Virus record (IMG/VR): IMGVR_UViG_3300009285_016357
Coordinates: 1-36,617 of that record
DNA: 36,617 nucleotides
From: a virus
Reading direction: 5' to 3' (one strand)
Shown here: positions 2,146 to 36,617 of the stretch, one piece after another
Position numbering within the stretch: position 1 is the first letter of the stretch
Layout: every line of letters starts with the position of its first letter
Program-made: the position numbers and the translations under genes
The notes under the pieces: generated by a model
Told to the model about the DNA's origin: nothing
Seen by the model: only the letters and a program-made list of their open reading frames with translations
Databases searched by the model: none

Positions 2146-2154
2146 GGAGGTCCG

Positions 2155-2391
2155 ATGTACCACATGACGCGGGCGGAATACGACGCGGTGCACGACGCGA
2201 TTACGCATCAGCTCTTTCGGGTGAACCGCAACATCAAAGCGGTCTTCGGGAACGACATGACGGATGAGGAACTGCGCACCACCCATCGCATGATGCAACA
2301 GAGCGTCCACCAAGCGATACAAGCCAAGGAGCAACAGGCGATGCAACCGCAATTGCAGACTCAGCGCGACCTCAGGAGAGGACTCGTGTAA
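2155..2391 (+). CDS. Small helical protein between ejection-type genes, 78 aa
   Basis: Unrecognised. The ATG sits 3 bases after a full AAGGAGGT ribosome site (2144-2151), so the start is firm. The protein is charged and predicted mostly helical (MTRAEYDAVHDAITHQL..., then a Gln-rich helix with MMQQSVHQAIQAKEQQ). Its stop overlaps the next start by one base (TAATG). Position between the 714-aa and 268-aa proteins suggests a small virion component or assembly factor; this is inference from context only. Confidence 0.75.
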   Translation: MYHMTRAEYDAVHDAITHQLFRVNRNIKAVFGNDMTDEELRTTHRMMQQSVHQAIQAKEQQAMQPQLQTQRDLRRGLV

Positions 2392-8940: not shown

Positions 8941-9131
8941 GGCTTCCAGTCCTCAGCAGGCGTCAAGGGTCGGTCAGGGAAATAGCACCGCGACGCTCCG
9001 AGACAGAGCCACCAATCCGGCCCCATCACAAACGCCATATTGGCGATGAGCGTTCCACAGGAACAAGTGGTAATGTCCAATAGCGGGTCATAGTCCTGAG
9101 CGCCGATTCCGCCATGCGTATGTTTGCTCAT
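8937..9131 (-). CDS. Small Cys-containing protein, 64 aa
   Basis: Unrecognised. It begins MSKHTHGGIGAQDYDPLLD, carries TCSCG and later WWLCLGASRCYF, so four Cys could bind a metal. The start is selected by the ATGA overlap with the upstream 101-aa gene; the frame is open further upstream but no start there fits the operon pattern. Confidence 0.6.
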   Translation of the reverse strand: MSKHTHGGIGAQDYDPLLDITTCSCGTLIANMAFVMGPDWWLCLGASRCYFPDRPLTPAEDWKP

Positions 9132-9433
9132 CCCAGCGCGTCCAGGGGACGGCAAATGACTTCTATTATCTGATTGCAAACAGGCAATGACCCACCACAC
9201 TTACTTGGCATTAACAGACGCGGTAATTCTTCTTTCAGGCGTTCCATCGCTCTCTGCATCTCCTCCAGCCGGGCGAGCAGGCGGGGGAGGTCGGATTGTG
9301 CGTGCAGAAAGAATGGCACGGCATCGGGTGTCAGGTTGAGTTCCCAGAGGTCATCTTCGCTATAGGGCGCATGGGCGTTGGCATATGCTTCACACCGTGC
9401 CCGGATCGCCGCGAGGTCGGAGGCGAGGGTCAT
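9128..9433 (-). CDS. Small early protein, SDLAAIR/LLARLEEM family, 101 aa
   Basis: It begins MTLASDLAAIRARC and continues with FFLHAQSDLPRLLARLEEMQ, a layout seen in many small phage and prophage proteins (a helix-rich N-terminus, then a LLARLEEM coiled coil). Function is unknown for that type. It is a paralogue of the 89-aa gene at 9845-10114: same N-terminus, same LLARLEEM helix encoded by an identical 26-base stretch, and the same C-terminal RPLDxxG ending. ATGA overlaps on both sides set the start and join it to the operon. Confidence 0.75.
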   Translation of the reverse strand: MTLASDLAAIRARCEAYANAHAPYSEDDLWELNLTPDAVPFFLHAQSDLPRLLARLEEMQRAMERLKEELPRLLMPSKCGGSLPVCNQIIEVICRPLDALG

Positions 9434-9573
9434 CGGTATTTCTCCTTCAAGGCTTTGGGGTCATACATCGGAGAGTTGCTCCCACGTAGCGTTGCCCATT
9501 TCTCCTTAAGAATCCGTCGGCGTTCAGTCTGCCGACGCTGATAGTGAGGGTCAATCGTCCAGTCTTTGCTCAT
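9430..9573 (-). CDS. Small basic protein, 47 aa
   Basis: Unrecognised. MSKDWTIDPHYQRRQTERR and a Lys-rich end make it strongly basic and helical, compatible with nucleic-acid binding but not proof of it. The start region GGAGC(G)AGGGAGATGAGC is nearly identical to that of the 78-aa gene at 10523, one of several reused start cassettes here. ATGA overlaps on both sides. Confidence 0.6.
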   Translation of the reverse strand: MSKDWTIDPHYQRRQTERRRILKEKWATLRGSNSPMYDPKALKEKYR

Positions 9574-9848
9574 CTCCCTCGCTCCTGCTGAGCCTGAGCA
9601 AGGTCGGCTTCGAGCTGTTCCTTGATCCGTCCAAACTCTGCCGCTTGTTCTCCAATCATCCGGTTGGCATTTCGGAGGTATCCCTGTGTCTCTGCCCACC
9701 GTTTGATATGCATGTTGACAGACGCCTCATAGCGCTCTGTGGCTGCCGCCAGCGCCTCGGCGGACACGGAATGGCAGGGGCCGTGGATGATGGCACTCCC
9801 ACGTCCACCAGTGAACTCAATTCGACAGGTGCAGGGCTGGCTACTCAT
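9570..9848 (-). CDS. Coiled-coil protein, 92 aa
   Basis: Unrecognised. A short Cys-bearing N-terminus (MSSQPCTCRIEFTGGRGS) precedes a long helix (residues about 28-92) ending LEADLAQAQQERGR with coiled-coil character. The start is fixed by ATGA overlap with the upstream paralogue gene. Confidence 0.65.
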   Translation of the reverse strand: MSSQPCTCRIEFTGGRGSAIIHGPCHSVSAEALAAATERYEASVNMHIKRWAETQGYLRNANRMIGEQAAEFGRIKEQLEADLAQAQQERGR

Positions 9849-10114
9849 CCCGGCACGTCCAGGGGGCGGAGCGATATGCTCACTCGTTTCCTTATATCGT
9901 CCACAATCATGTCGGCCTCTTTCTTGCCTCCATAGTCCAGCGCGTGAAAATAGTCTCGTACCCTGTTCAATGCTCCCCGCATCTCCTCCAGCCGGGCGAG
10001 CAGGTGTGCGCGGTCGATAATTGCGTCACCAGCATAGGCCATCAGGTCGGGGAGCGCGGGAGCTTGTAGGCACCGTACCCGAATCGCCGCGAGGTCGGAG
10101 GAGAGGTCAGTCAT
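9845..10114 (-). CDS. Small early protein, paralogue of 9128-9433, 89 aa
   Basis: It begins MTDLSSDLAAIRVRCLQ and shares HLLARLEEM and the terminal SLRPLDVPG with the 101-aa protein 400 bases downstream. The parts between differ (the other copy carries an acidic LWELNL region; this one has a KKEADMIVDDIRKR helix). An ordinary gene duplication with later divergence or cassette swapping would explain this. ATGA overlaps on both sides. Confidence 0.7.
   Translation of the reverse strand: MTDLSSDLAAIRVRCLQAPALPDLMAYAGDAIIDRAHLLARLEEMRGALNRVRDYFHALDYGGKKEADMIVDDIRKRVSISLRPLDVPG
9979..10004. repeat. 26-base direct repeat, copy 2 (copy 1 at 9256-9281)
   Basis: Bases 9256-9281 and 9979-10004 are identical over 26 positions and 723 bases apart. 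Both encode, on the minus strand, the LLARLEEM helix of the two paralogous small proteins. Flanking bases differ. This much identity at DNA level between otherwise diverged genes suggests recent exchange or strong constraint. Confidence 0.85.
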
Positions 10115-10290
10115 TCATAGTCTCCTTCATCCATCGACCAGTGTTGTCTAGATCGGATGATCTTCATGGCCGCTTGTCGCTCAATCTTTCGCTTCCTTCG
10201 AAGCATACGACCAGTAGCCTCGCGAATTATTTTGGGCGCTTTCTTCTGAGTTATTAGTCTTCCTGCCGCGAGGTCGGAGGAGAAGGTCAT
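10111..10290 (-). CDS. Small basic protein with reused start cassette, 59 aa
   Basis: It begins MTFSSDLAAGRL, sharing 18 identical start-proximal bases (10265-10282 with 10086-10103) with the next gene downstream, then diverges completely into a Lys/Arg-rich helix (MLRRKRKIERQAAMKIIRSR). The chimaeric look (conserved first nine residues, unrelated rest) suggests a start module was recombined onto another reading frame. The region is AT-richer than its neighbours. ATGA overlaps on both sides. Confidence 0.65.
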   Translation of the reverse strand: MTFSSDLAAGRLITQKKAPKIIREATGRMLRRKRKIERQAAMKIIRSRQHWSMDEGDYE

Positions 10291-10523
10291 CGAACCGCCA
10301 TCAGTTCTTGCATCTTGTCGATGAGGTCTGCCAAACATTCCTGATTAAAACAGGTGTCGCGGCAGGGGAAGAACGCATATTGTCGCCAGCGACCAAACCA
10401 TTTAATCTGACCGAGAAGCGTCTGCTGCGTCGTGGATTCCACATCGAGGACGAGGGTTTTTCCTGTCGCACTCTCTCCGGCTGGAACAAACTTGAGCCAT
10501 CGGCTTACCGGTCTATCGCTCAT
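10287..10523 (-). CDS. Conserved small phage protein (WRQYAFFP type), 78 aa
   Basis: Contains KTLVLDVESTTQQTLLGQIK followed by WFGRWRQYAFFPCRDTCFNQ and a C-terminal helix ECLADLIDKMQELM. The LGxIKWxxxWRQYxFFP pattern recurs in many small phage and prophage proteins; I know no established function. Start at ATG 10523 has GGAG eight bases upstream; 28 bases separate it from the YopX gene. Function left open. Confidence 0.75.
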   Translation of the reverse strand: MSDRPVSRWLKFVPAGESATGKTLVLDVESTTQQTLLGQIKWFGRWRQYAFFPCRDTCFNQECLADLIDKMQELMAVR

Positions 10524-10551: not shown

Positions 10552-10929
10552 TCATGGGGTGGGGCTGGTGAGCAACGCTGGGTGTTCGTAGATGTTGCCG
10601 AGGATTTTCCACCATTGAAGGTCATGTGGTACGACGAAACAGGCATCGCGCTCACTCCAAACAACATCAACAGGAATAGGTTTCATTCCATCGGGGACAT
10701 CTTCACGCCAAAACTCAATGTTACTATCGTGCATCTCCGTTGGGACAAGGACATCTCCTTCGTAGATTTCTTTGCTGTTCCCGTCGAGGAGGCCGGTGAA
10801 TTGCATGAACACCATATCCCGTAGGTGATGAGCAACTTCAACCCGACCACCATCGAGGAAGAAAAGACACGTAACAGGCTCCATCGCTTTCTTGATCGGA
10901 TCCCACGCTCTGAACTTGATGGCTCTCAT
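10552..10929 (-). CDS. YopX family protein, 125 aa
   Basis: Clear YopX-type sequence: MRAIKFRAWDPIKKAM at the N-terminus, FMQFTGLLDGNSKEIYEGDV in the centre (the hallmark FTGLxDxxGxxIYEGD), and KILGNIYEHPALL at the C-terminus. YopX proteins are common in phages and low-GC hosts' plasmids; biochemical role is not settled. Full length for the family. The gene sits 34 bases after the 39-aa membrane protein and has only a weak ribosome site. Confidence 0.9.
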   Translation of the reverse strand: MRAIKFRAWDPIKKAMEPVTCLFFLDGGRVEVAHHLRDMVFMQFTGLLDGNSKEIYEGDVLVPTEMHDSNIEFWREDVPDGMKPIPVDVVWSERDACFVVPHDLQWWKILGNIYEHPALLTSPTP

Positions 10930-10963
10930 CGTCCGGCTCGGCGGGTGGGGTGCCAAGGATAGG

Positions 10964-11083
10964 TTATCGGAACAACCATTTCCATAATCCAATCTGTTTG
11001 GCGACTACATATCCAAGCCACCCCGCACTCCCAAACCATAGGGCGGCGATATTCATCCAAAGCAAGAACTTCAGTGGGCTCAT
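10964..11083 (-). CDS. Mini membrane protein, 39 aa
   Basis: MSPLKFLLWMNIAALWFGSA then a glycine-aromatic stretch and a basic end (KWLFR): one or two membrane passes. The start ATG overlaps the upstream stop as ATGA, the same coupling as the flanking genes, which supports this short frame over the overlapping 70-codon frame in another phase. Function unknown. Confidence 0.6.
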   Translation of the reverse strand: MSPLKFLLWMNIAALWFGSAGWLGYVVAKQIGLWKWLFR

Positions 11084-11403
11084 CGTTCCCTCCGCAGAGT
11101 GGCGCGGCGACGCATCGCGTCCGCAATTCGCTTGCCATCGTCTAGGATAGCGTCGCTACAAATGCACGCAGTATGAGCACATGGTTGAGTAAACTGTTCA
11201 GCAATCAATGCTGCCTCCTCCCACACCCACGCCTCCGCCTCGGTCAGGGCGGTGGTGATGAGGTTCAAGAGCTTTTTTCGTTCTCCCATCGTATCGCCCA
11301 TTGTATGCGGATCGAGTCGCCAATTCTTCCTCCAGGCCATATACGCAGCGTAGACTTGCTCTGCCACCTGCGTCGCGTCCGCGGGGGTGGGCTGGTCAGG
11401 CAT
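11080..11403 (-). CDS. Small helical Cys/His protein, 107 aa
   Basis: Unrecognised. MPDQPTPADATQVAEQVYAA leads into AYMAWRKNWRLD and a helix ALTEAEAWVWEEAALIAEQF, then CAHTACICSDAI and a basic end. The AAxIAExxxxxC...IAxAIR-like layout is seen in small phage proteins of unknown role. The ATG overlaps the upstream stop by eight bases (ATGCCTGA), a junction type reused in this genome. Confidence 0.65.
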   Translation of the reverse strand: MPDQPTPADATQVAEQVYAAYMAWRKNWRLDPHTMGDTMGERKKLLNLITTALTEAEAWVWEEAALIAEQFTQPCAHTACICSDAILDDGKRIADAMRRRATLRRER

Positions 11404-11632
11404 CAGTGGCTCCACCTTTTCGTGCGGCAGCCATCAACAGCCGTCCGATGGCAACCACGACGTTGGGGTCACTCTGGCGAAAGCGGAATTGTCCATCTCC
11501 TTTGTTCACGAAGGGGGTTACGGTGATGCATCCTGTCCCATAGCGGGTCAGGTAGACGGCATATTTCTCTCCCGGCAACTCGACCCGCCAGGTCTGTTCC
11601 TCATGTTCGAGGGTGAAGGTGGGGTCAGGCAT
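11396..11632 (-). CDS. Small beta-rich protein, 78 aa
   Basis: Unrecognised. MPDPTFTLEHEEQTWRVELP, then alternating polar and hydrophobic residues (YAVYLTRYGTGCITVTPF), suggests a small beta fold. The start overlaps the upstream stop as ATGCCTGA. It shares the MPDP start with the 24-residue Trp-rich peptide at 8425. Confidence 0.65.
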   Translation of the reverse strand: MPDPTFTLEHEEQTWRVELPGEKYAVYLTRYGTGCITVTPFVNKGDGQFRFRQSDPNVVVAIGRLLMAAARKGGATDA

Positions 11633-12272
11633 GGGGAGCCTCCGGGGTGAGGGCGGCACGACACGCATCATTGATGGCGTGCATCTGCGCTCGAAGATGG
11701 TCAGCTTCGCTATGGGGAGCGGACTCGTCTGGTAAATTACAGTATCCTGCGCCAGCGGGCTTCGGCTCACTCTGACAGCGGATGGCTTCGACCACCCCCT
11801 CCATCCGTTCCAGGTCGGCGAGGAGGGACAAGACGATATCCGGGGAGCAGGCAGCACGTAAAGTCGCTTGTTCAAGCATCATCATCCCAGGCGAAGCGGT
11901 CTTTACGTTCTCCGCTCTCGCCTTCAACCGAGCGCGGGCGGGAGGGGTCATGGGCGGGGTTGTCCGCTGCTGACACCACCGATTTTCCTCCTGGCCGGTG
12001 GCCCAAGCCAGGAGGTCGTCAGCCGCGAGCCGACAGAGGCGACACGCCGTCGGATTGCCCCCCGTCACCTGATGTGCACTCCCATGCAGGCTTGTCAGAA
12101 TACCGCGGAGTCTCTCCCACGAGGGCGTCGGGACACAGGCGAGGAGGTCGTTGAGAAATGTACGACACCACGGGAATAGTTTCCCTAACGGATCCTCAGC
12201 CGAAACCCACGCATCATGACAGGTCGTTCCATGCTTCCGCAACACCGCTTCCAGTTGGGCACGAAGGGTCAT
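11625..12272 (-). CDS. Two-module early protein, 215 aa
   Basis: The first 90 residues (MTLRAQLEAVLRKHG..., CRLCRLAADDLLAWA) form one helical unit with CxxC. From about residue 108 (MTPPARARLKARAENV) a second unit resembles the small paralogues further downstream: ATLRAACSPDIVLSLLADLERM parallels LLARLEEM. It therefore looks like an in-frame fusion of two small early genes. The start is fixed by an ATGA overlap with the lipoprotein gene; an internal start at the second unit is possible. Confidence 0.7.
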   Translation of the reverse strand: MTLRAQLEAVLRKHGTTCHDAWVSAEDPLGKLFPWCRTFLNDLLACVPTPSWERLRGILTSLHGSAHQVTGGNPTACRLCRLAADDLLAWATGQEENRWCQQRTTPPMTPPARARLKARAENVKTASPGMMMLEQATLRAACSPDIVLSLLADLERMEGVVEAIRCQSEPKPAGAGYCNLPDESAPHSEADHLRAQMHAINDACRAALTPEAPHA

Positions 12273-16525: not shown

Positions 16526-17162
16526 TGCGATCTTCCACCGGCTTGACCCCAGGCACGTTCATCGCGGTCTTGAGCGACCTCGCGAGACCATTCAGGACGG
16601 GCAGGTTCGCCAAGATGAGCGTGAGGGGTTGCTTGCCTTGTCCGACCGCCAGCGCCAACGCCTTGAGATCCGTCACGTCGGCGCTCCATCTCGTCTGAAA
16701 ATGTTGATTCTCGATCTGCGGCGTTTTCTTGGGCACGATGACCGGAGGACTGGCGCTGATGATCTCCTTCGCGGTGTCAGGATCGTCGCTCGCCTCGGCC
16801 AATTCCTGCGCCTTGCGCTGGGCTTCCTCGTGCAGCTTGCGTTCGGCCTCACGGCGCTTCCGCTCTTGTTCATCATCCCAGGAGATCATTTGCCGATCCA
16901 CCGTCGAGAGGAACGTCTGAAGGGGCAGGAGGGCTGCTTTTTCCTTCGTGAGGATTTCGGCCTTTGCCGCGTCGATCTTTCGCTTCATCGGGGCGAAGTA
17001 GTCCTTGATAGCCCGAATGCGGGCGTTGATCGCCTGGCCGATCTCTGCCGCGCTCACGTAGCTCTGCTGGGATGTGATCCGGAGGCCCTTCGCTTGGCTC
17101 AAGACCAAAGCATTCTCCTGCTCCAACTGTTGCTCGTTGATCTCAGCGAGGTCGGTCGCCAT
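16506..17162 (-). CDS. Recombination-associated coiled-coil phage protein, 218 aa
   Basis: A long helix with heptads (residues about 40-125: AINARIRAIKDYFAPMKRKI, ... RKRREAERKLHEEAQRKAQE) is followed by a short globular C-terminus (HFQTRWSADVTDLKALALAV). The layout YxxAxxxxxxI...FxPMKxxIDxAK is a common phage family encoded beside annealing proteins and exonucleases; function is not established. GGAGG seven bases before ATG fixes the start, and the gene overlaps the nuclease upstream by 20 bases. Confidence 0.75.
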   Translation of the reverse strand: MATDLAEINEQQLEQENALVLSQAKGLRITSQQSYVSAAEIGQAINARIRAIKDYFAPMKRKIDAAKAEILTKEKAALLPLQTFLSTVDRQMISWDDEQERKRREAERKLHEEAQRKAQELAEASDDPDTAKEIISASPPVIVPKKTPQIENQHFQTRWSADVTDLKALALAVGQGKQPLTLILANLPVLNGLARSLKTAMNVPGVKPVEDRNVSRRL

Positions 17163-17793
17163 GATTCGTCCTCCACGTGTCTAAGACATACGCAATCTGT
17201 TTCTCCGTGAGCCGTACCCCGAAGATGGATGTTGGGTCCACCCCGCGCGCGTCCAGGGCTTTGTAGATGGCTGTCAGTCCGACGCCGTGATCACTCCGCT
17301 CTCGAAACGGATGGAGCCGGTATTGTTCGTTCGGGAGCAACTGCACCCCCCATCGCTGGCAGGGGGCGCGGCCCAACCACTCATAGAGCGCGGTCTGCAA
17401 AGCTTTGCTCGGGGACATCCCCCCGCTCTGGAAGTCGAGGAGCAGCCGCACCCCGTGATGCCGGAGGACGAGATCTGGCGTGCCGGCGATGGGGAGCGTG
17501 GGATGGAACAGGGACCGCTCCACGGCGATGATGCGTTCGGGTTTGAGATCGCGCAGACACGCCTGCGCGGCTCGGACATAGGGGAGGACGACGGGATCGA
17601 CGGTGGCCCAATTCAGATCATTCTCCAAGTGATAGGCGATGCTGGCATGAGTCGCCTGTCCACGGCTCAGGTGAAATGCGGTCCCCCACGTCTCCACCAG
17701 CCCCGCTTCCTTGAGTGCGTCCGTCACCGACACGAGGACCTGCCCCTGTCGCTTGTAGGTATGGGTCTGAGGGTCGTAGGTGCCCTTAGGCAT
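17143..17793 (-). CDS. PD-(D/E)XK recombination nuclease, 216 aa, atypical active site
   Basis: Exonuclease of the Cas4/RecB-like group, expected to resect DNA ends for the annealing protein upstream. Motifs in order: HTYKRQGQVLVSVTDALKEA (N-terminal family signature), RGQATHASI, E92 in AVERSLF, GTPDLVL with D107, LLDFQSG with D120, and the Q133-Y motif in ALQTALYEWL. The usual catalytic Lys of D-x-K is Gln122 here. The start overlaps the annealing gene stop by eight bases (ATGCCTAA). Confidence 0.8.
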   Translation of the reverse strand: MPKGTYDPQTHTYKRQGQVLVSVTDALKEAGLVETWGTAFHLSRGQATHASIAYHLENDLNWATVDPVVLPYVRAAQACLRDLKPERIIAVERSLFHPTLPIAGTPDLVLRHHGVRLLLDFQSGGMSPSKALQTALYEWLGRAPCQRWGVQLLPNEQYRLHPFRERSDHGVGLTAIYKALDARGVDPTSIFGVRLTEKQIAYVLDTWRTNHGDRPR

Positions 17794-21894: not shown

Positions 21895-23888
21895 TGGCGA
21901 ACCTCATCCTCCGCGGCCATGCGACAGATCGTAAGCTCCTCGACTATGCCCTCCAAGTGATTGCGTCGAGCGACGGCTGGTGGCAGGACGGGATGCCGGG
22001 GACGACCTTCTCGCGCCGGGATCAGTTCCAGGAGTATCGCCTGCGGATGGAGGGCCGGCGCTCGGTGGCGGGGCTCTATCGGGACGCCAAGGATGAACCG
22101 TTTGAGCAGAGCTCGAATGTCGGCGTCCCCGCCGAGCAGATTTTCTCCGAGTTTCTCATTCCCACCCTTCTCGCCAACACGCATGATCTGGAACCGATGT
22201 TGCAAGCGATTGACCTGAAAACCGAGGCCGTGGATGAGGCGCTCACGGCCTTCCATGACCGCTACCACCGGGTGGAACTCTCGACCAAGCGACAGTTGTT
22301 GGAGGAATCCACGCGGGAGGTCTTGACCGTCGGGAGCGTCTTTCATAAGTGGACCTGGGGCAGCCTGTGGAAGCAGCGGGAGGTCTCCTTTACGGTCTTC
22401 ACCCATCCCTTGAGTAGTCAACCCATCATGCGCCAGAACCCGCAGACCGGTCAGAGCGAGCCGTGGTTTGTTGATCCGAAGATGCCAGACGATCTCTGGC
22501 CAGTGGATCCCGCGACGGGGATTCGGCTCACCGTGCAATCGATGCCCGCGACCGATTTTGACCTCGTGCGGGAAGGCCCGCAGCTCACTGTGGTGACAGC
22601 CGAATCTATCCTGTTTCCTCCGTCTGCGAACACGGTCGATCCAGAGAGCTGGGACTATGCCGGGCATCGCTACGCGGTGAGCCCCTGGTGGTTTCTCGGC
22701 CGCGAGGGTGACCCCTTTGATGGTAAGTTGCAGAACCTTCCGTTGCTGTGGAAATGGCTCGGGGTCAAGCCGGATGAGGTCCACCGCCGGCCCGATGGGA
22801 CGCTGACGAAGCCCGTGCGTCTCGCGGAGCTGCAGATGAAGTTCCCGGTCGATGCCTCGGGCAAGCCCGTGGAAGTCATCGCCTTAGTTGCCGAAGAAGC
22901 GAAACTGCTCTTAGCCTGGCGGGTGAGCAAGTTTCCTCGTCGCAATCTCTTTGCCCGGCAGGTCTTCAGCCGGGGGCAGCATCCCTTAGGCAAAGGGATT
23001 CCAGAAACCGCCTATGGGCTTCGCTCAGCCTTGGATGCCTCCGTGAACCAGGACATTGACGCGGGGAATCTCTACAACCATCCGCCCCTCTTGCTCTCTT
23101 CACTGGCGATGCTGGAAGATGAGGACTATGAAACGACCGGGCCCGGCACCCAATGGGTCATGACGGACATCAATGGGGCGAAGTTCCTCCCGCCGCCCAT
23201 CGGCAAGCGCGATCCGATTGCGCGAGAGAACTGGTTACTCTCGATGTTGCAACGGATGTGGGGCGTGACGGATTTGAACCTCAACGCCCCAACTGATTCG
23301 CTCGCCCCGAGCCTGAACACGGCCCGGGGGACGATGGCGGTGCTGAATCAAGGGAGTATCAAGTTCGGGCATCTGACCAAGCGGCTCTCGGAGACGGATA
23401 CCCTCGAATATCAATTCGGGCATGACCTGTTCTCAGAGATGCTCGCCAACTCCAAGACGGTGTCTATTAAGGGGCAGCCGGTGACGATTAAGCCGGAGCA
23501 ACGGCAGACGTTTTTCCGTCCGGACGTGTACCTCGTCTCGCGTGGCAATGGGGTGACGACCAACCCGGCCTTGCGCCAACAAGTCCTGATGCAGGGCTAC
23601 CCACTGTTGATGAGCAGTCCGTTTATCGGAGGCGATTTGTCGGTCCGGAAAGACTACGAGGAACAATTGCTGGCGGCGTTGGGCATCCAACTCGATCTCA
23701 AAGACCCCCAAGCGCTCCAACAGAGCCAACTTGTGTTCCAACTCCTCCAAACGCCGGAAGGGCAAGCGGTCCTTCCGCAAGCGCTACAAGCCGTGATGCA
23801 GCAACTCCAACTGCGTCCATCCAGCAATGGCAAGGGCCCTGGTCCTGCGTCCGCTCCCTCGAGGCCGAATGTGGCGCTGGCTCAGTAA
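21894..23888 (+). CDS. Portal protein, 664 aa
   Basis: Dodecameric head-tail connector expected directly after the terminase. Features: QSSNVGVPAEQIFSEFLIPT and TREVLTVGSVFHKWTWGSLW near the N-terminus, a long central beta/alpha region with WDYAGHRYAVSPWWFLGREG, then GMPETAYGLRS-type helix (KGIPETAYGLRSALDASVNQ), and a Gln-rich helical C-terminus (ALQQSQLVFQLLQTPEGQAV). Size and order fit podovirus-like portals. The last residues overlap the next gene by 20 bases. Confidence 0.85.
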   Translation: MANLILRGHATDRKLLDYALQVIASSDGWWQDGMPGTTFSRRDQFQEYRLRMEGRRSVAGLYRDAKDEPFEQSSNVGVPAEQIFSEFLIPTLLANTHDLEPMLQAIDLKTEAVDEALTAFHDRYHRVELSTKRQLLEESTREVLTVGSVFHKWTWGSLWKQREVSFTVFTHPLSSQPIMRQNPQTGQSEPWFVDPKMPDDLWPVDPATGIRLTVQSMPATDFDLVREGPQLTVVTAESILFPPSANTVDPESWDYAGHRYAVSPWWFLGREGDPFDGKLQNLPLLWKWLGVKPDEVHRRPDGTLTKPVRLAELQMKFPVDASGKPVEVIALVAEEAKLLLAWRVSKFPRRNLFARQVFSRGQHPLGKGIPETAYGLRSALDASVNQDIDAGNLYNHPPLLLSSLAMLEDEDYETTGPGTQWVMTDINGAKFLPPPIGKRDPIARENWLLSMLQRMWGVTDLNLNAPTDSLAPSLNTARGTMAVLNQGSIKFGHLTKRLSETDTLEYQFGHDLFSEMLANSKTVSIKGQPVTIKPEQRQTFFRPDVYLVSRGNGVTTNPALRQQVLMQGYPLLMSSPFIGGDLSVRKDYEEQLLAALGIQLDLKDPQALQQSQLVFQLLQTPEGQAVLPQALQAVMQQLQLRPSSNGKGPGPASAPSRPNVALAQ

Positions 23889-24303
23889 ACCGCGTGTCTG
23901 GCCCGCCCTGGTGCGGTCGATCCAGGCTTTGGCGGCGTTTCGCCGTGCGCGAAGCGGGTTTCTGCCAGCCGGGGGTCCGGGGAGGCCCACCCTCCGCCGC
24001 GCCTGGTCCCTGGCGGGGGTGAAGGCGTCGGATGCCTCGTTGCTCCAAGAACTGGCCTCGAGCGGTCGGCGGATGGAGGCGCTCACCAATCAGCCGGGCT
24101 GGACCGATCTGCTGGAAGCCAAGCAGTATTACCAATCGCTCGCCGATTGGAAAACGAAGACGCCGACCTTGACCGAAAAGGAACGCTTTCAAGCGGCGGT
24201 CGAATGGGCGACCCTGGAAGGGTTTTTCAAGGAAGTCTACGGACGGATGCGGCGCGGACGCGAGGCGGAGGGAAAACTGAACAAGGTCGTCGTGCGTCGT
24301 TAA
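23869..24303 (+). CDS. Small basic protein after portal, 144 aa
   Basis: Unrecognised. It starts MWRWLSKPRVWPALVRSIQA, another MW-basic-hydrophobic N-terminus like three virion proteins here but lacking the NxRG part. The middle is Arg/Pro/Gly-rich, the end helical (LLEAKQYYQSLADWKTKTPT, AVEWATLEGFFKEVYGRMRR). GAGG lies four bases before ATG; a longer in-frame start would overlap portal more. It is the last gene before a terminator. Confidence 0.65.
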   Translation: MWRWLSKPRVWPALVRSIQALAAFRRARSGFLPAGGPGRPTLRRAWSLAGVKASDASLLQELASSGRRMEALTNQPGWTDLLEAKQYYQSLADWKTKTPTLTEKERFQAAVEWATLEGFFKEVYGRMRRGREAEGKLNKVVVRR

Positions 24304-24449: not shown

Positions 24450-25280
24450 ATGGCTGGAGACGTTCTGCGAAGGCTATGGGCCCGCCTGAACAATCAGCGC
24501 GGAGAGGTCATCACCCTGCCGACCGATGTGCAGGAGAAACTGTCCCGGCTGGAGAAGCTGGAGAAGGACAATGCCGCCTTGGGCTATCGGATGCGGGCGT
24601 GGGAGAAACTGGGGAAAGAGGCGGGGGACGTGATTGAGTATGACGCGCAAGGCATCCCGATGGCGTTTCGGTACACAGCGCCAGCGACGGCGCCCCTCCC
24701 GGTCACCGGGTCACACCCCTTAAGCGGGGTCCATGAGAACCCGCAGGCGGTGGATGCCTACTACCAGGCGCTCTACACCCAGCAACTCAACGCGGCGGGC
24801 TACGTGACCGTCAAGCAAGCCCAGGAGATGGCCTCCGAAGCCTATCAGCTCGCCCGGGGGGATGGACAGGTGTGGCGCACCTACGACAAGCTGACCGCCA
24901 AGCCGGACTATGCGGATCTCGCCAAGCTGGAGTCGGACCTGTCGAAACGGACCGCGACGATTCTGCAAGAACGCAACTTGGCGCGCCCGTTGCCGAACGC
25001 CAAGGGCTTCGATGAGTGGCAGTATGGCGATCTGGGCCATCTGCAGTTCGGGGCGGATTTGGCGCGGTTGCAGATGCACCAGGAAGCCCTGACCGCCGCG
25101 GCCGCGGCCGCGTCGGGTCACGTCAATCAGAACCAGGCGGGGTTGTCGGTCGGGCCTGGGGCGGCGGCGGCGCCAGTGCCCGTGTCGGGCGAGGTCCCGG
25201 TGACGGGTGGGGTGGTGGACTGGGAGAAGGTTCGGTCGGATACGGAATCCCGAGCGGGACAGTTCGGGGTGAAACTCTAA
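24450..25280 (+). CDS. Scaffold-type protein, 276 aa
   Basis: Directly before the capsid gene, as scaffolds usually are. N-terminus MAGDVLRRLWARLNNQRGEV shares the NxRG motif with capsid and the 714-aa protein. A short leucine-zipper-like coil follows (VQEKLSRLEKLEKDNAALGY), then helical regions and an Ala/Pro/Val-rich linker (PGAAAAPVPVSGEVPVTGG) before a C-terminal WEKVRSDTESRAGQFGVKL, which could be the capsid-binding end. GGAGG eight bases before ATG. Confidence 0.7.
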   Translation: MAGDVLRRLWARLNNQRGEVITLPTDVQEKLSRLEKLEKDNAALGYRMRAWEKLGKEAGDVIEYDAQGIPMAFRYTAPATAPLPVTGSHPLSGVHENPQAVDAYYQALYTQQLNAAGYVTVKQAQEMASEAYQLARGDGQVWRTYDKLTAKPDYADLAKLESDLSKRTATILQERNLARPLPNAKGFDEWQYGDLGHLQFGADLARLQMHQEALTAAAAAASGHVNQNQAGLSVGPGAAAAPVPVSGEVPVTGGVVDWEKVRSDTESRAGQFGVKL

Positions 25281-25296
25281 CAACCAAGGAGTGCTC

Positions 25297-26619
25297 ATGT
25301 GGTGGGTCAAGTTCTTCGTCTCGTTCCTCAGGAACGAGCGCGGCGTGACCCTGAACCTCGCGACCAAGACGAGTTGGGACGCGATTATCCCGGAGTATTG
25401 GGATAAAGCGGTTCAGGATGAATCAGATCGGCTCTCCGTCATCAACCGGCTCACCGGCCCGGACGGGTCGGATGCGGCGGTCTTGACGAAGACCGATTTG
25501 ACCAAGCAGAAAGGGGACAAGATCACCTTCTCGACCCTGCAGCGGTTGCTGGGCAAGGGGGTCTCCGGGACGACCGCCTTGGAAGGCGCCGAGGAAAATC
25601 TGGTCCCGGGCACGTATACCGTGACGGTCGAGCTCTTCCGGCACGCGACGGCCGCGAATGACATTGCGCGCCAGGAGTCCTTATTGGACTTCCCGCGAGA
25701 TGCCGGCCGGAAGATCTCGGAATGGCACGCCCGGTTCCGCGATGACAACTTCATGAGTCAGATCTTGAACGTCGACACGATTCAGACGTTGTACGCGGGG
25801 GGCAAAACGTCGCGGGGGAACCTCGGCCCTGCCGATACGTTTAACACGCGGGAACTCAAGCGGTTGCACCTCGCGGGTCGCCGGCGCGGAGTGCGGCCGT
25901 TTCGCACTACGCGGAAAGCGCAGTTGCCCTGGCCCGTGTATGGGGCGCTGATTTCGGAGGTGGACTACTACAACCTCATCGAGTCGGACGACTTCAAGCA
26001 GGACATGCGCTTGGGGGCGGAACGTGGGGCCAACAACCCGGTCGTGGATGGGTCGGTCGATATGTACCAGGGGATCGTCCTCTGGGTCTTCGGCTCGGTC
26101 AACCCCGGCGATGGGATGCTGGGCTCGTTCCTGCGACCGGAAGCCCGGCTGGCGGCCACGATTACCGCGAGCGGGACGAGCGTGACGGCCGGTCCGACGA
26201 CGGCGGTGACGAACGTGGACTACTGGCAGTATTTCCCCGGCGCCTATGCCTACGGGGAGACGATCAGCGGGACGCAGACGGCGCTCATTGACAGCGAGCA
26301 GATGACCTTCACGGCCGCGCCCACGGATACGACCCTGACGGTCACGCGCGCCGCCAACGGCACGACGGGCGTGGCGCATACGGCCGGGGCGTTGATCACG
26401 CTGAACAACGTCGGGAAGGTGGTGGTGTTCGGGGCCCAGACCGCCCTGGAAGCCTGGGCGATGATGGTCCAGCGGATTCGCCAGGAGCGGGACTACGGGA
26501 TGGAACTCGGGATCGGGGTGAAGTGGATGTACGAAGTCAAAGGGGTGGCGAACGCGGATGCGACCCTGGCGAACTGTGTGGTTGAAGAGACCACATCCCC
26601 GAACCCGAACACGGTCTAA
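25297..26619 (+). CDS. Major capsid protein, N4-gp56 type, 440 aa, with inserted beta-domain
   Basis: Typical N4-gp56 family opening after the N-terminal tail: KGDKITFSTLQRLLGKGVSG, LEGAEENLVPGTYTVTVELF, then HARFRDD and later NPVVDGSVDMYQGIVLWVFG and VGKVVVFGAQTALEAWAMM. Between residues about 287 and 371 a Thr/Ala-rich beta-domain is inserted, with IDSEQMTFTAAPTDTTLTV and RAANGTTGVAHTAGALITL, the type usually found in phage tail or baseplate proteins. The first 20 residues hold FFVSFLRNERGVTLNL. AAGGAG precedes ATG 25297. Confidence 0.88.
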   Translation: MWWVKFFVSFLRNERGVTLNLATKTSWDAIIPEYWDKAVQDESDRLSVINRLTGPDGSDAAVLTKTDLTKQKGDKITFSTLQRLLGKGVSGTTALEGAEENLVPGTYTVTVELFRHATAANDIARQESLLDFPRDAGRKISEWHARFRDDNFMSQILNVDTIQTLYAGGKTSRGNLGPADTFNTRELKRLHLAGRRRGVRPFRTTRKAQLPWPVYGALISEVDYYNLIESDDFKQDMRLGAERGANNPVVDGSVDMYQGIVLWVFGSVNPGDGMLGSFLRPEARLAATITASGTSVTAGPTTAVTNVDYWQYFPGAYAYGETISGTQTALIDSEQMTFTAAPTDTTLTVTRAANGTTGVAHTAGALITLNNVGKVVVFGAQTALEAWAMMVQRIRQERDYGMELGIGVKWMYEVKGVANADATLANCVVEETTSPNPNTV

Positions 26620-26632
26620 GGGAGGAGCGACC

Positions 26633-27007
26633 ATGAAGCGAGTCTTCTATGCGATTGGCCTGCTCCTGATGGTGCAGGGCGTGGCAGGGGCGGCGTGTCC
26701 GGATGAGCAAGTCCTGAAAGTGGTGGGGGCGCCCCTGGCCGATGACGGGATCATCACCACGAACGGCCAGGATGTCAACGCGATCCTGGTGGACTGCTCG
26801 GGGACCGCGTGTACCGGCGGGTTCTACAACGCGGATACGCTGGGGGCGGCGGTGTTAGCCGACCTGAAAGCCCATGTGGGCGGGGCGGCGAACACCACCA
26901 CGTTCCTCGATTTGACGGATGCCCCGTTGTATTTTAGCGACGGGGTGACGTTCGTCGATGACGCGAACGTGGATGCGGCCCTGATCTATAGCTGTCAGCC
27001 GCGCTGA
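26633..27007 (+). CDS. Secreted capsid-adjacent protein, 124 aa
   Basis: The N-terminus MKRVFYAIGLLLMVQGVAGA is a Sec signal peptide with a likely cut after VAGA, before ACPDEQ. The mature part is small and beta-like (NGQDVNAILVDCSGTACTGG, FYNADTLGAAVL, PLYFSDGVTFVDDANVDAAL) and resembles small decoration-type phage proteins encoded after capsid genes. Three or four Cys could form disulfides outside the cytoplasm. GGGAGGAG precedes ATG; the longer in-frame start overlaps the capsid gene and is rejected. Confidence 0.75.
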   Translation: MKRVFYAIGLLLMVQGVAGAACPDEQVLKVVGAPLADDGIITTNGQDVNAILVDCSGTACTGGFYNADTLGAAVLADLKAHVGGAANTTTFLDLTDAPLYFSDGVTFVDDANVDAALIYSCQPR

Positions 27008-27378
27008 TGCGTGCCGTCCTCCTGGGGGGGCTGCTGCTTCTGGCAGCCTCCCCGGTGGCGCTCGCGGCCACCTCACCGTGTACCGAGACGCAAGAACTGA
27101 CCCCCCCAGCGTGGGTCGAACTCTCAGCTCGGCCCGCGAGGCTCTGCGGCGTGGCGTTCTTCGCCACGGCCGCCAACGGCTACTGTCACGTCTTCGATAG
27201 TCCCGATCCAGACGATCCGACGCACGGACAAGCGCGCACGGTGGCCGAACCGGGGGCGGCGACCGCCGGCAATTCCGCCGCCGTGGGCTTTGGGGATAAC
27301 GGCTATCCGACCCGCTTCGGGCTGGGGGCGTATGCGGTCAATGGCCGATGCATCGTCTACTTCGGGACCACGCCCTAA
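27007..27378 (+). CDS. Secreted protein of unknown function, 123 aa
   Basis: Signal peptide MRAVLLGGLLLLAASPVALA, cut before ATSPCTE. The mature part is beta-rich with Cys (C47, C60, C115 and others) and a C-terminal YAVNGRCIVYFGTTP. The start overlaps the previous stop as TGATG, so the two secreted proteins are coupled. No family recognised. Confidence 0.7.
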   Translation: MRAVLLGGLLLLAASPVALAATSPCTETQELTPPAWVELSARPARLCGVAFFATAANGYCHVFDSPDPDDPTHGQARTVAEPGAATAGNSAAVGFGDNGYPTRFGLGAYAVNGRCIVYFGTTP

Positions 27379-28364
27379 GATTCTCGACGGGGGTCTGGGT
27401 GGCGGCACCACTGCTGGGGGTGTGGCCGGGGGCGTCGCCGAAGTCCGCGCAGATCGGCTGGTGGGTGCTCGCGTCCCTCCTGGTCATTGCGGTCGGGATG
27501 CGAGCGCCCGTGCGTCGGACGCTCTCCGGGTTCGGGTGGGCGGTGGGGGCGGTCCTGGTCGTCGTCTTCAGCCACCTGCAGGGGATCGGGTTTACGATTG
27601 GTTGGGCCTATCAGGTCAGCCTGCTTGTGGTCGCGAGCTGGTTCCTGGCCGAACGCGGGGAGTTTCGATGGATCCGACAGACGGTGCTCGGCGTGGCGTG
27701 GCTGCAGGTGGGCCTCGCCGGGCTCGAACTGGCGGGGATGACGTTGTATCCGACCGCCGGGGCGTGGCCGCATGGGAGCCTGACGACGCGCACGGGCCTC
27801 GCCATCCTCTGGATGCTGGCGAGCCTCTGGAGCACGCACTGGAGCGCCCTGGGGTTTGCCGTCTTGGCCTGTCTGACCGGCAGTTGGACGGCCGCGCCGG
27901 CCCTCGTCCGACTGGTCTGGACCACTGGAGGCATCACGACCTCCCTCCTCGTCTCGATTCCGGTGCTGCTCGGGGTCTTCGCGCGACTCTGGTGGGACAA
28001 ACTCACATCTCGCGTGGAGGTCTGGTCGTCTGTCTTCTGGCTGCAAGCGGGATGGCTGACGGGGTGGGGGTTTCTGCCGTTTCCGCTCGGCTTCGTCAGC
28101 ACCGACCCCACCGGCGCCATCGGCACGTTGCCCTCCCTCTATCTGAACAACACCGCGCTCGATTGGGTCGGACGCACCGGGCTCGTCGGGGCGGTCCTCT
28201 TGGGGGGGTGGCTGTGGTGGGTGGCTCGCCGCCTCACCGCGCCGTGGCGGGTCTGGACGGCGCTCGGCGTGGGCTGGGCGATGTGCTGGCAATCGGCCGA
28301 AGCCCTGCCGGTCTTGAGTCTGTTGGGGCTGTGTAGCGTGATCGGGATAGCCCAGGAGGACTGA
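27348..28364 (+). CDS. Polytopic membrane protein, O-antigen ligase/polymerase-like, 338 aa
   Basis: About ten hydrophobic segments run along the chain (for example WWVLASLLVIAVGM, GWAVGAVLVVVFSH, SLLVSIPVLLGVF, GLVGAVLLGGWLWWVARR). The segment LPSLYLNNTALDWVGRTGLV recalls the HNxxL...GxxG stretch of Wzy/WaaL-type proteins though His is absent, so an O-antigen enzyme is possible but unproven. It overlaps the previous gene by 31 bases, has no good ribosome site, and a GTG shortly after could be the start. Odd company for capsid genes. Confidence 0.65.
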   Translation: MHRLLRDHALRFSTGVWVAAPLLGVWPGASPKSAQIGWWVLASLLVIAVGMRAPVRRTLSGFGWAVGAVLVVVFSHLQGIGFTIGWAYQVSLLVVASWFLAERGEFRWIRQTVLGVAWLQVGLAGLELAGMTLYPTAGAWPHGSLTTRTGLAILWMLASLWSTHWSALGFAVLACLTGSWTAAPALVRLVWTTGGITTSLLVSIPVLLGVFARLWWDKLTSRVEVWSSVFWLQAGWLTGWGFLPFPLGFVSTDPTGAIGTLPSLYLNNTALDWVGRTGLVGAVLLGGWLWWVARRLTAPWRVWTALGVGWAMCWQSAEALPVLSLLGLCSVIGIAQED

Positions 28365-31027: not shown

Positions 31028-31333
31028 ATGCCGCAGGCCTCGATCCTGCAAAGTTTTACGACCGAGCGGATCACGGTCGATGACACCGTCGGCGGGGTGC
31101 GCCTGACGATTGCCAACGTCGTCTCCACCCCCCCGGCCCAAGCCGCGACGCTGACGGTTGAAAGTGCCCAGATCCGCTGGACGAAAGACGGCACCGCCCC
31201 CACCTCGACCACCGGCCATGTGGCGAATGTCGGATCGGTCATCTTCCTGGATAACGCGGGGGATCTCTGGAACTTTCGCGCCATCAGAACAGGAGCGACC
31301 AGTGGGACGCTACAAGCGACTTATCATCGGTAG
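31028..31333 (+). CDS. Small beta protein, decoration or fibre-base type, 101 aa
   Basis: MPQASILQSFTTERITVDDT, LTVESAQIRWTKDGTAPT and TGHVANVGSVIFLDNAGDLW form the usual pattern of small phage beta proteins (...A.I..dG.aPT...G...) found near heads or fibres. The C-terminal RTGATSGTLQATYHR overlaps the fibre start by 32 bases. Confidence 0.65.
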   Translation: MPQASILQSFTTERITVDDTVGGVRLTIANVVSTPPAQAATLTVESAQIRWTKDGTAPTSTTGHVANVGSVIFLDNAGDLWNFRAIRTGATSGTLQATYHR

Positions 31334-33671
31334 CCTCCTCCTGACCAGCCCGGCAGGGTGGGCCGACGAGGCGGGGATTACGCCGTCGGCGTTCCAATTG
31401 GCCGAGGAGGAAGATGGCGCCCCGTCCTGTGCTGGCACCATTCTGAAGGTCAGCAACACCTCGCTGACGGATAACGCGGATGGGTCGTGTTCCGTCTCGA
31501 CCAGTGGCGGCTCCGGCGATGTCACCGCGGTCGGCGATGTGACCTCCGGCGCCGCCTTCGACGGGACGCAGGGGACGACGCTCACCTTCAACGACGCCGC
31601 GGGCGACCAAACGCTCCTGTACAATTCCGGCGGCGACCTCGACTTCAACTTCTCCGACGACCTCACCCTCCGGGACGCCACCCCTCACCTGCAATGGCTC
31701 GATACCACCGCTTCGCACGACGACTTCGAGGCCTACGCCGATGCGAGCCAGTGGTATCTCACGAACGTGACAGACGCGATTGAACTCCTTCGATACGATG
31801 CGTCCTATAACCTGCACTTCCGCGGCGGGGCAGTGGCCTACGACTGGCCGACGGCAGATGGGAGCAACGGGCAGTTTCTTCGCACCAATGCGAGCGGCGG
31901 ACTCTCCTGGGCCACCGGCTCCGGCGGCAACTCGTTCGAAACGATGGCCGTGCCCGCCGGAGCCTCCGTGGTGGCCGACACCGCCACCGACACCCTCACC
32001 CTCACCGAGGACACCTTCCTCACCCTCACCGGCACGGCGGCGACCGACACCATCGCCATCACCCAAGTGACGACCGACCTGGGCACGGACGGGCTGATTG
32101 CCGCCAATGCCGTCGCGCTCACCACGGATACGACCGGCAACTATGCCGCCGGCGATGCGGAGGCGGGAGCGGCCCTCACTGGTGATACGGCTACCGCGTT
32201 CTTCTCGCTCGGCACGTTGGAGCATGAGCGTGGCGGCCTCGAAGCGGACGTGAGCGCCTACGATGGCCTGGTTGGGGTGACGGGCGGGGCGACCTACAAC
32301 CAGACCGGCACGACCACCCAGATCATCATCTTCGACGGGGCGGGGGCCCCGACCTCTGCGGCGCTCTCTGGTGACGTGACCATGACGAATGGCGGGGTGG
32401 TGAGCATTGCCGCCGATTCGGTGGCGCTGACGACGGACACCACTGGTAACTATGTCGCAGCCGTCACCACCAGCGTCTTGACGGGACTCACCGGCGGGAA
32501 TGTTGCCGCCGAAGGGACAACCTCTGCCCTTGCCTTTGATTACTCCCAAGCCTTGAGCGGTGATGTGGGCCTAGGGGCGAACGCCACAGTGTTCGGGGTG
32601 ACGGGATTGGTGGCGGAAGGCGCGACGGCCGATACGATTGAACTCTTCCTCGCCATTCCCGACCCGGTCACGACGGACAAAACCATTACGCTGTTCAACG
32701 CCACCGATACGGTGGTGGGGAAGGCGACGACGGATATCTTGACCAACAAGACGATTGCGGCAGCCGACAACGTGGTGACCGCCGATGACACGATCTGCAC
32801 CGACTGCCTCAATGCCACGGAGATTGAAGACCTCTACACCCTGAACACGGGCGACACCATCACCGGAGCCGTCACCATCAATGACAATGATGCGGCAGGG
32901 AGTACCCTCCTGACCATCGGGGACGCGACCGACGCCGATTCCGCGGCGATCTTCGGTGATCTGACCATCACCGGCGGCGATCTGACCCTCGGCACCACCT
33001 CCATCTTCAGCGGGGGCGATACGGCGAGCCTGAACAACGTGGATGCGGTGGATGCGACGACGGAGGCGACCATCGAGGCGGCGATTGATACGCTCGCCAA
33101 CCTCGCGTCTGGCGGGTTAGCGGATAATACCGTTGTGGATGCTGATCTCGCCATAACGGAATCGATGAATCTGTTTGCGAATCGTCCGAAAATCACTGGA
33201 GCCTTTGTCGTTCGCACCCCGACGAGCGGCGATGCCTCCACGCAAGGAGCTGCGATTGATGCAGGGGACGGGAACTGGCGGCTTCTGTTTGATCCGACGA
33301 CGGATGAGGCCGTGGTTTGGGAGTTCCGCTTGCCGGATTATTGGGGGGCGCATGGCGAGGTGAATATCCAGTACAGTATGACCTCCGCGACGGCCAATGA
33401 GGTGGACTTTGAGGTGGACGTGATGTGTGTTACGCCGGGGGATGCCGCCGACATTGGAATCGCCTCCTTTGCGGGAGTGGCGACGGCCTCCGATACAGTA
33501 CCGGGCACGGCGGGGTACTTGGATGAGGTGTCGGTGACGGTTACGGATGATGCGTGCGCGCCAGGGGACCTCATGTGGCTCTATCTCTCAAAGGATGCCA
33601 ACGATGCGACCCTGGACGATGCGACGGGAGATACCGAGGTTGTCGGAGTGGAATATGAGTTTACGCGCTAA
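31302..33671 (+). CDS. Tail-fibre-like repeat protein with Sec signal, 789 aa
   Basis: GTG start with AGGAG six bases upstream gives MGRYKRLIIGSLLLTSPAGW, a good signal peptide cut before DEAG. The remainder is Thr/Asp/Gly-rich with repeated motifs (LTTDTTGNYAAG and LTTDTTGNYVAA; GDVTAVGDVTSG; ATDTLTLTEDTF), like fibre or adhesin shafts, and ends in a globular part (DEAVVWEFRLPDYWGAHGEV..., VTVTDDACAPGDLMWLYLSK) likely to be the tip. A Sec signal on a phage fibre is unusual. Confidence 0.75.
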   Translation: MGRYKRLIIGSLLLTSPAGWADEAGITPSAFQLAEEEDGAPSCAGTILKVSNTSLTDNADGSCSVSTSGGSGDVTAVGDVTSGAAFDGTQGTTLTFNDAAGDQTLLYNSGGDLDFNFSDDLTLRDATPHLQWLDTTASHDDFEAYADASQWYLTNVTDAIELLRYDASYNLHFRGGAVAYDWPTADGSNGQFLRTNASGGLSWATGSGGNSFETMAVPAGASVVADTATDTLTLTEDTFLTLTGTAATDTIAITQVTTDLGTDGLIAANAVALTTDTTGNYAAGDAEAGAALTGDTATAFFSLGTLEHERGGLEADVSAYDGLVGVTGGATYNQTGTTTQIIIFDGAGAPTSAALSGDVTMTNGGVVSIAADSVALTTDTTGNYVAAVTTSVLTGLTGGNVAAEGTTSALAFDYSQALSGDVGLGANATVFGVTGLVAEGATADTIELFLAIPDPVTTDKTITLFNATDTVVGKATTDILTNKTIAAADNVVTADDTICTDCLNATEIEDLYTLNTGDTITGAVTINDNDAAGSTLLTIGDATDADSAAIFGDLTITGGDLTLGTTSIFSGGDTASLNNVDAVDATTEATIEAAIDTLANLASGGLADNTVVDADLAITESMNLFANRPKITGAFVVRTPTSGDASTQGAAIDAGDGNWRLLFDPTTDEAVVWEFRLPDYWGAHGEVNIQYSMTSATANEVDFEVDVMCVTPGDAADIGIASFAGVATASDTVPGTAGYLDEVSVTVTDDACAPGDLMWLYLSKDANDATLDDATGDTEVVGVEYEFTR

Positions 33672-34440
33672 CCTCCTCCTCAGCCTCTGGCTCTGCGCGA
33701 CCCCGGCGTGGGCGGCGGTGGATTTCGATGGGGCCGATGACAGCATTGACTTCGGGTCGGCGGCCTCGCTCGACAACGCCTTCTACTCCGTCTATGCCGA
33801 TTTTGAGGTCCAAGGGACCGGCGATACGACCGCCCAGCGGATTTTCTCGAAAGGGTTATGGCACATCATCTATTCCGATGCCGACGCGGACGGGTCGCAT
33901 GATCTCTTCTTGGACCATGACTGTGTGACGACGCAATTCCAGCGACGAGGCGGAGCCCAGAGCATCAATACGCGCTATCGCTTGGTGGTGAAGTGGGACC
34001 GCTCCGGGACCGCCGCCAATGCGGAAATCTACATTAATGGGGCGCAGGTGTCCTACGCCACGACCCAGAACTGCGTCGGGGGCCTCATAAGCGATGCCCC
34101 GGAGGACCTCTGTCTGGGGAATGATTCCGCCATCCCGTGCGCGGAAACGCGGTCCTTCGACGGCCTCATCTACGAGGTGGCGTTCTGGAGCATCGAGTTG
34201 ACCGACGCGGAAGCCGTCGCCCTCACACAACCCAACCGTCGGATTCGACTCGGTCCCACCCAGGTCCAACCAGCCAATCTCATTCTCTACTCGACGCTGG
34301 ATGATGAGGAGGGGGGCAGTTCTGCGGATGCGGACACCTTCTTCGACCGCTCCGGGAATGGGAACAACGGGACGGGGGCGGATGGGGCTGGCAATGCAGG
34401 ACTCACCGCCGTGAGTGAACCCCAACTGAGCTACCCATGA
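33655..34440 (+). CDS. Secreted LamG/concanavalin-like protein, 261 aa
   Basis: Signal peptide MSLRANLLLSLWLCATPAWA, then AVDFDGADDSIDFGSAASLD, the standard opening of LamG or concanavalin-A-like carbohydrate-binding domains, with YRLVVKWDRSGTAANAEIYI, FDGLIYEVAFWSIELTDAEA and a closing ILYSTLDDEEGGSSADADTF. Expected to bind glycans outside the cell. GGAG seven bases from ATG 33655 sets the start; it overlaps the fibre gene by 17 bases. Confidence 0.8.
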   Translation: MSLRANLLLSLWLCATPAWAAVDFDGADDSIDFGSAASLDNAFYSVYADFEVQGTGDTTAQRIFSKGLWHIIYSDADADGSHDLFLDHDCVTTQFQRRGGAQSINTRYRLVVKWDRSGTAANAEIYINGAQVSYATTQNCVGGLISDAPEDLCLGNDSAIPCAETRSFDGLIYEVAFWSIELTDAEAVALTQPNRRIRLGPTQVQPANLILYSTLDDEEGGSSADADTFFDRSGNGNNGTGADGAGNAGLTAVSEPQLSYP

Positions 34441-34886
34441 GAACCGTCTGTGTGTGGTTGCTAATGACTGGCCTTGCCTTCGCCGAAGACGTGGTGCGCT
34501 TCGATCCCGCGACGGGTGCCTACCAGGGCTGCCTAAGCATTGGCGATACTACTGTCTTTCTCACTGACCCCAACGACCTCAAAACAGCGAAACCCAGCTA
34601 CCTGGTTGTCGACCCGCTGACCTGCCTCACGGCGAGCTTTGCGGGCATTCCAGAGCGGTATCGGAAGGTAGCGAACGGGCAGGTGGTCGAGATGACCCAG
34701 GCCGAGCAAGATGCGGTCGATGCCCCGCCTCCGTTGACGCCGGATGAACAAGCCCTCGCCACCCTCAACGCCCAGCTCGATGCGGATGACGTGGCCTGGA
34801 CGAGCCTCACCACCGCCCAGAAGTTCGCGGTGGTGAAGACGCTCCTGCGGCGGGCCGTCTTGCAGCGACGGCTGGGACGCGAATGA
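34437..34886 (+). CDS. Secreted small protein with fibre-chaperone-like tail, 149 aa
   Basis: Signal peptide MRTVCVWLLMTGLAFA, cut before EDVVRFD. The body includes RYRKVANGQVVEMTQAEQDA, a stretch common at the C-terminal part of phage fibre-associated proteins, and a helical C-terminus (TSLTTAQKFAVVKTLLRRAV). ATGA overlaps on both sides couple it with the LamG-like gene and the next. Confidence 0.7.
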   Translation: MRTVCVWLLMTGLAFAEDVVRFDPATGAYQGCLSIGDTTVFLTDPNDLKTAKPSYLVVDPLTCLTASFAGIPERYRKVANGQVVEMTQAEQDAVDAPPPLTPDEQALATLNAQLDADDVAWTSLTTAQKFAVVKTLLRRAVLQRRLGRE

Positions 34887-36214: not shown

Positions 36215-36390
36215 TGGCATTGACGTTGAGGCAAGCGCAAGGGGGCAGGAAGAAGCAGGTGTCGTTGCAACACTTCCTGACGGAGTTTGCCGTGAGCATC
36301 GGCACCACGGCGGACAAGGCCCAATACAACAAAGCGTGGCACACGCTCTGGTGTCGCATTCACCGACTTGGCTTGTTCAAGCAGGCGTGA
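36214..36390 (+). CDS. Small basic protein, 58 aa
   Basis: MALTLRQAQGGRKKQVSLQH, FLTEFAVSIGTTADKAQYNK and AWHTLWCRIHRLGLF: helical and basic, no family recognised. It is joined by one-base overlaps (TGATG) to both neighbours and follows AGGAGG, so the short frame is credible. Confidence 0.6.
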   Translation: MALTLRQAQGGRKKQVSLQHFLTEFAVSIGTTADKAQYNKAWHTLWCRIHRLGLFKQA

Positions 36391-36617
36391 TGGACGCCGT
36401 GATCGTCCTCGTCGTCTTCGCCGCCCTGGTCGGGGCCATCTGGTGGCTGGGCGCGCATGGCCTGGCCATCCTCCTCGGAGGGTGTGCGGTCGTCACGGCG
36501 TTCGTGGAAGGCATCTGGGTGTGGCGGTTCGGCTTGTCGGTCTCCCAGGAGACTGGACGATTGAAGCGGTGGCAACTCCTGACCATCATCCTGCTGGTGG
36601 AGGCGGGGGCGGTGGGG
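36390..36617 (+). CDS. Multi-pass membrane protein, partial (76 codons to window edge)
   Basis: MDAVIVLVVFAALVGAIWWL, LAILLGGCAVVTAFVEG and WQLLTIILLVEAGAVG give about three membrane passes before the frame runs off the window. The start overlaps the previous stop (TGATG). Could be a holin or other envelope protein; incomplete. Confidence 0.55.
   Translation, partial: MDAVIVLVVFAALVGAIWWLGAHGLAILLGGCAVVTAFVEGIWVWRFGLSVSQETGRLKRWQLLTIILLVEAGAVG

Follow-up and report, generated by a model that had tools for sequence, protein, structure and literature searches.

A shared N-terminal peptide on otherwise unrelated late proteins of an uncultured short-tailed phage

Late genes of the phage

The 36,617 bases analyzed here (the window) make up a virus record from an uncultured short-tailed phage. 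A tail adaptor of the SU10 type is encoded at 29858, and the order terminase, portal, 144-aa protein, putative scaffold and coat resembles that of podophages, e.g. Paracoccus phage KLEP18-1. The major capsid protein (25297-26619, + strand) belongs to the N4-gp56 / Phage_capsid_3 family: PF13252 was matched above its cut-off (E 3e-13), phrog_334 was matched at E 6e-33, the coat region could be aligned, and tblastn with this protein matched podophage coats. Its ATG at 25297 was favored over a GTG at 25291 because AAGGAG lies upstream at a 5-base spacing. Directly before the coat gene lies that of a coiled-coil-like protein of 276 aa (24450-25280, + strand), a putative scaffolding protein assigned by position only, for which no PHROG or Pfam match was found.

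At the other end of the window, genes for proteins of 714, 78, 268 and 1369 aa (bases 1-7306) form a putative ejection set, similar to the ejection genes of P22 and T7; the PHROG tail- or tape-like matches to it were weak only. The 714-aa protein (1-2145, + strand) consists of the tag described below, a fast-diverging N-terminal third, a glycine-zipper region (residues ~500-545) and a tape-like C-terminus, GGRLPYGG..VGERGPELL. We thus infer the identities of both the scaffold and the ejection protein from position and weak matches. Base 1 of the window is exactly the ATG of this gene, and the last open frame (36336-36617) would be in frame with it if the record is circular; bases may have been lost from the ends by trimming.

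A common peptide at the start of three late proteins

A preliminary description of this DNA had proposed that one N-terminal peptide is common to three otherwise unrelated proteins, and all three N-termini were found as it gave them. The peptide (the tag) reads MWRHLVRSLTNQRGQTLNL on the 714-aa putative ejection protein (1-57, + strand; core N11-L19 at bases 31-57), MAGDVLRRLWARLNNQRGEVITL on the putative scaffold (24450-24518, + strand; core at 24492-24518) and MWWVKFFVSFLRNERGVTLNL on the major capsid protein (25297-25359, + strand; core at 25333-25359). In the 714-aa protein, the putative scaffold and the capsid the core, N-[QE]-R-G-x-x-[LI]-x-L, begins at residues 11, 15 and 13, respectively, so that the earlier placing of it at residues 12-20 is right only approximately. 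All three tagged starts are credible as gene starts; that of the 714-aa protein lies at base 1, where an upstream extension would be invisible, and a homologue starts at the same Met. The 144-aa post-portal protein has, as previously described, an MWRWL-type start (23869-23898, + strand) without NxRG, and was not counted as tagged. A possible degenerate fourth copy opens the 1369-aa gp16-like protein (3197-3256, + strand; MRLFDDVLRPQRGALFQDLL), whose LRPQRGALF has PQRG instead of NQRG; alone it is not significant.

The motif was picked after inspection, and a chance resemblance of the three starts had therefore to be weighed. Of the 52 predicted translations, two of which are out of frame, 3 have N[EQ]RG in residues 1-40, and the set contains no other instance. 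Three N[EQ]RG starts never appeared in 2,000 shuffles: a single run reached two, and no other exceeded one; the strict motif was obtained in 0 of 2,000. Such matches are thus not common in shuffled sequence, a possibility which the preliminary description had raised against its own proposal. In addition, all pairs of first-30-residue segments from 49 proteins were compared in a motif-free manner. Among the 1,176 pairs the tag pairs ranked 2nd, 3rd and 5th, with scores of 43, 38 and 31, and when internal segments served as the null a score of 38 was reached in 0.04% of pairs. The first-ranked pair, two early proteins, has LLARLEEM in common as well and is paralogue-like. It was confirmed that the tag is real, beyond chance and confined to protein starts. 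The shuffles, the motif-free pair test and the independent retention of the tag in a second phage (see below) all oppose chance resemblance, which is hardly credible.

The tag on the coat protein

The window capsid was aligned with six homologous coats (BcepIL02, Skulduggery, KLEP18-1, RHph_Y1_10, Stean and POI1126). Its approximately 18-20 extra N-terminal residues are the tag, and all six homologues start just past it. By sequence the protein is a member of the N4-gp56 family; the addition of 18-20 residues is present in the window protein only, which differs from the family coats also by an insert in the C-terminal half. As judged from this alignment, the tag on the coat is a clean add-on module. 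The preliminary description would have fallen had relatives of all three proteins lacked the motif, and this was not the case: a relative of the ejection protein carries it, while none of the six coat homologues does.

Retention of the tag in a distant phage

For the 714-aa protein, the sole relative was found in a 30.9-kb record (G001), a very different, distant phage that otherwise has few genes related to the window. The homologue (L003:2-1636:-) keeps the tag as MWTRLWNLLANERGQ-LNL, and its start, MWTRLWNLLANERGQLNL, is identical to the window tag at 11 of 18 positions. Past the tag, identity falls to 25 of 82 aligned residues (Fisher p 0.028, tag versus this stretch), and in the C-terminal domain 173 of 271 residues are identical. 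A second tagged protein of G001 (125 aa; tag MRTLANLKRRLALWLLKLVCTNEQGGLSLGG) is encoded in the tail-gene region and not among the head genes. There are five clear copies of the tag, from two phages, and both G001 copies lead into GG linkers. The coat and scaffold candidates of G001 have no tag, which indicates that coat and scaffold are not tag-dependent everywhere. Together with the tag on the 125-aa tail-region protein, this weakens the earlier argument that the tagged proteins are those which meet in the procapsid.

Recombination might have put a start cassette before several genes, in which case the peptide would have little function. Such a process may be seen among early genes of the same window: the genes at 9128-9433, 9845-10114 and 10111-10338 (- strand) have a common start, (M)..S-SDLAA, and near their beginnings (at 9433, 10114 and 10338) share the near-identical DNA TCCTCCGACCTCGCGGC, with one mismatch in the first. 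One of the bodies is different, and the shared start is, by the look of its DNA, a recent reuse of a gene start. The late tags, however, differ at synonymous positions and upstream. Where the tags have the same residue they use different synonymous codons, which points to conservation by selection at the level of protein and not of DNA; the late tags are of long standing, with diverged DNA. Furthermore, the ejection-protein tag was retained while the following ~80 aligned residues drifted, which argues against an inert cassette, since such a cassette should have decayed with its neighboring sequence. Reused gene starts are therefore a decidedly unlikely explanation of the late tags.

Further copies were sought in larger collections. 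In viral contigs, the pattern MW-(4-10 residues)-LxN[EQ]RG gave six in-frame matches among those listed, none of them a tag; its fixed-spacing version gave G001 plus two non-tags only, and NERGx[LF]x[LF]GG was found at a valid position in G001 only. LxNERG-x-h-x-h-GG gave no convincing N-terminal tag in 85,000 genomes. Relatives of the capsid, scaffold and terminase were not found in the viral contigs, and a profile of the ejection protein returned only glycine-zipper matches from 244 genomes of two phyla. When the tag peptides were compared with phages by tblastn, a match in an Aeromonas phage was rejected as chance, for it spans a gene boundary. No further clear copy having come from the viral contigs or the 85,000 genomes, the tag appears to be rare in the collections scanned.

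Prepilin-type and Sec-type signals

The preliminary description had compared the RG step with a prepilin cleavage site. The tags might then be prepilin-like signals, cut after NxRG by a host prepilin peptidase; what they have in common with type IV or Flp prepilin leaders is a basic start and a Gly before the putative step (position -1), and NERG presumably resembles the leaders of type IV, Flp and TadE proteins. This comparison did not hold. Glu at +5 is absent from all five tags (the residues there are L, L, L, G and G), the 21 residues past the Gly have a mean KD of -0.6 to 0.5 and form no hydrophobic helix, and the Pfam and NCBIfam prepilin models gave no match to the tags even at E 10. 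A prepilin-like signal is thus very improbable. A double-glycine leader of the bacteriocin type was considered for G001 and rejected, as the spacing residues misfit by eye and the window tags have no GG. Nor is the tag a typical Sec signal peptide: by a simple heuristic, neither the window tags (all three) nor the G001 ejection protein gave a positive call, and the 125-aa protein of G001 has a borderline h-region and no AxA.

Other late genes do begin with Sec signals, as called by a simple heuristic plus AxA sites located by eye. In the window these are 26633-27007, 27007-27378, 31302-33671, 33655-34440 and 34437-34886; in L003 of G001 they are 9176-9700, 10596-11201, 11198-11917 and 16944-17342 (- strand). 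Among the genes with such signals are those of a ~790-aa fibre-like protein and a Laminin_G_3 protein. Convincing Sec signals on genes of a virion cluster are unusual, and they are seen in both phages. Both phages also have, among the late genes, one for a multi-pass membrane protein (window 27348-28364; L003 15863-16939, - strand), which by eye looks like an O-antigen ligase or polymerase and gave no Pfam match.

Probable helical character of the tag

The stretch before the core is basic, Trp/Leu-rich and amphipathic (combined shuffle p 5e-4, with helix end points set after the motif was known). In this comparison the tagged proteins rank higher than the other late proteins (p 0.004, likewise with end points set post hoc). 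From these features we infer that the stretch would form a helix; AlphaFold models of the capsid and of the G001 125-aa protein had pLDDT of 32 and 43, too poor for structural use. A membrane-binding amphipathic helix might suffice to explain the tag: the late proteins would be anchored at the inner membrane, as the site of particle assembly, with no specific protein partner. The tag helices are amphipathic, mostly of net positive charge and rich in Trp and Leu, and Sec signal peptides are encoded by five further late genes of the window, all of which agrees with this explanation. The hydrophobicity of the tags is modest, however (12-residue KD maximum -0.7 to 1.5), and the conserved NxRG-x-x-L-x-L is left unexplained. 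It seems quite unlikely that membrane binding is the whole of the matter.

Discussion

We tentatively propose, at somewhat less than even confidence, that the tag is a leader of ~20 residues, a conserved N-terminal module which serves as an assembly-recruitment tag. The leader would comprise a short basic, Trp/Leu-rich amphipathic helix, an N-[EQ]-R-G turn that ends the helix, and a short L-x-L strand, and would be placed ahead of otherwise unrelated late proteins. A shared partner, or the tags themselves, would bring coat, scaffold and ejection protein together where the particle grows, perhaps at the inner membrane. In G001 the tail-region protein would be brought there likewise, and the tag may later be trimmed.

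Such a tag would act like the capsid-targeting sequences (CTS) of T4 or the leader of P22 gp7; membership in either group is suggested by analogy at most. It speaks against our proposal that P22 can largely do without the comparable leader of gp7, the burst in its absence still reaching ~60% of normal (PMC8402733), and that the five clear copies come from two phages only. In T4, N-terminal capsid-targeting sequences are common to internal proteins and suffice to target cargo (PMC9026906). As with IPI-IPIII of T4, the window has a short N-terminal peptide on proteins with unrelated mature parts, the T4 peptides being linked to the assembly of the head (PMC9026906). We claim no sequence relation between the two. 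The T4 sequences are cut by the phage prohead protease gp21, whereas no such protease was found in the window: PHROG searches of the late genes returned no prohead protease. Nor was T4-type [LI]xE cleavage indicated, residues 1-100 of the 714-aa protein being free of Glu. A further difference from T4 is that the window tag is also on the coat and the putative scaffold, and in G001 on a tail-region protein. To our knowledge, targeting of the T4 type has to date been described for internal cargo.

The P22 gp7 leader, like the tag, is a stretch of ~20 basic and hydrophobic residues that opens a podophage ejection protein (a putative one in the 714-aa case, from gene order and weak tape-like PHROG matches). 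It occurs on one P22 protein only and has no NxRG-x-x-L-x-L. The P22 record gives the N-terminal 20 residues of gp7 as cut by the host OpdA, and the mature N-terminus has been shown (PMC8402733). The tag might, by the same token, be a leader that is cut off by a host peptidase and that keeps the proteins soluble or inactive, or marked, until assembly. The likeness in length, position and basic-hydrophobic character is in keeping with this, as is the passage of both G001 tags into GG linkers. On the other hand, no common cleavage sequence follows the tag, the PHROG searches of the late genes revealed no phage protease, and in P22 only gp7 has such a leader, the other head and ejection proteins starting differently. 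A cleaved leader of this kind is, on balance, unlikely.

A broader scheme, which we consider improbable, would join the tags to the Sec-type signals. The NxRG tags would keep the head and ejection proteins with one another or at the membrane, the Sec-type signals would export several fibre- or decoration-like late proteins, and part of virion assembly or maturation would take place at or across the inner membrane.

If the tag does recruit coat, scaffold and ejection protein alike, a small phage without a recognized head protease would possess an assembly signal that is both compact and portable. A tag that recruits late proteins would aid in predicting virion genes among the unknown genes of uncultured phages, and might be used for loading proteins into phage-like particles.
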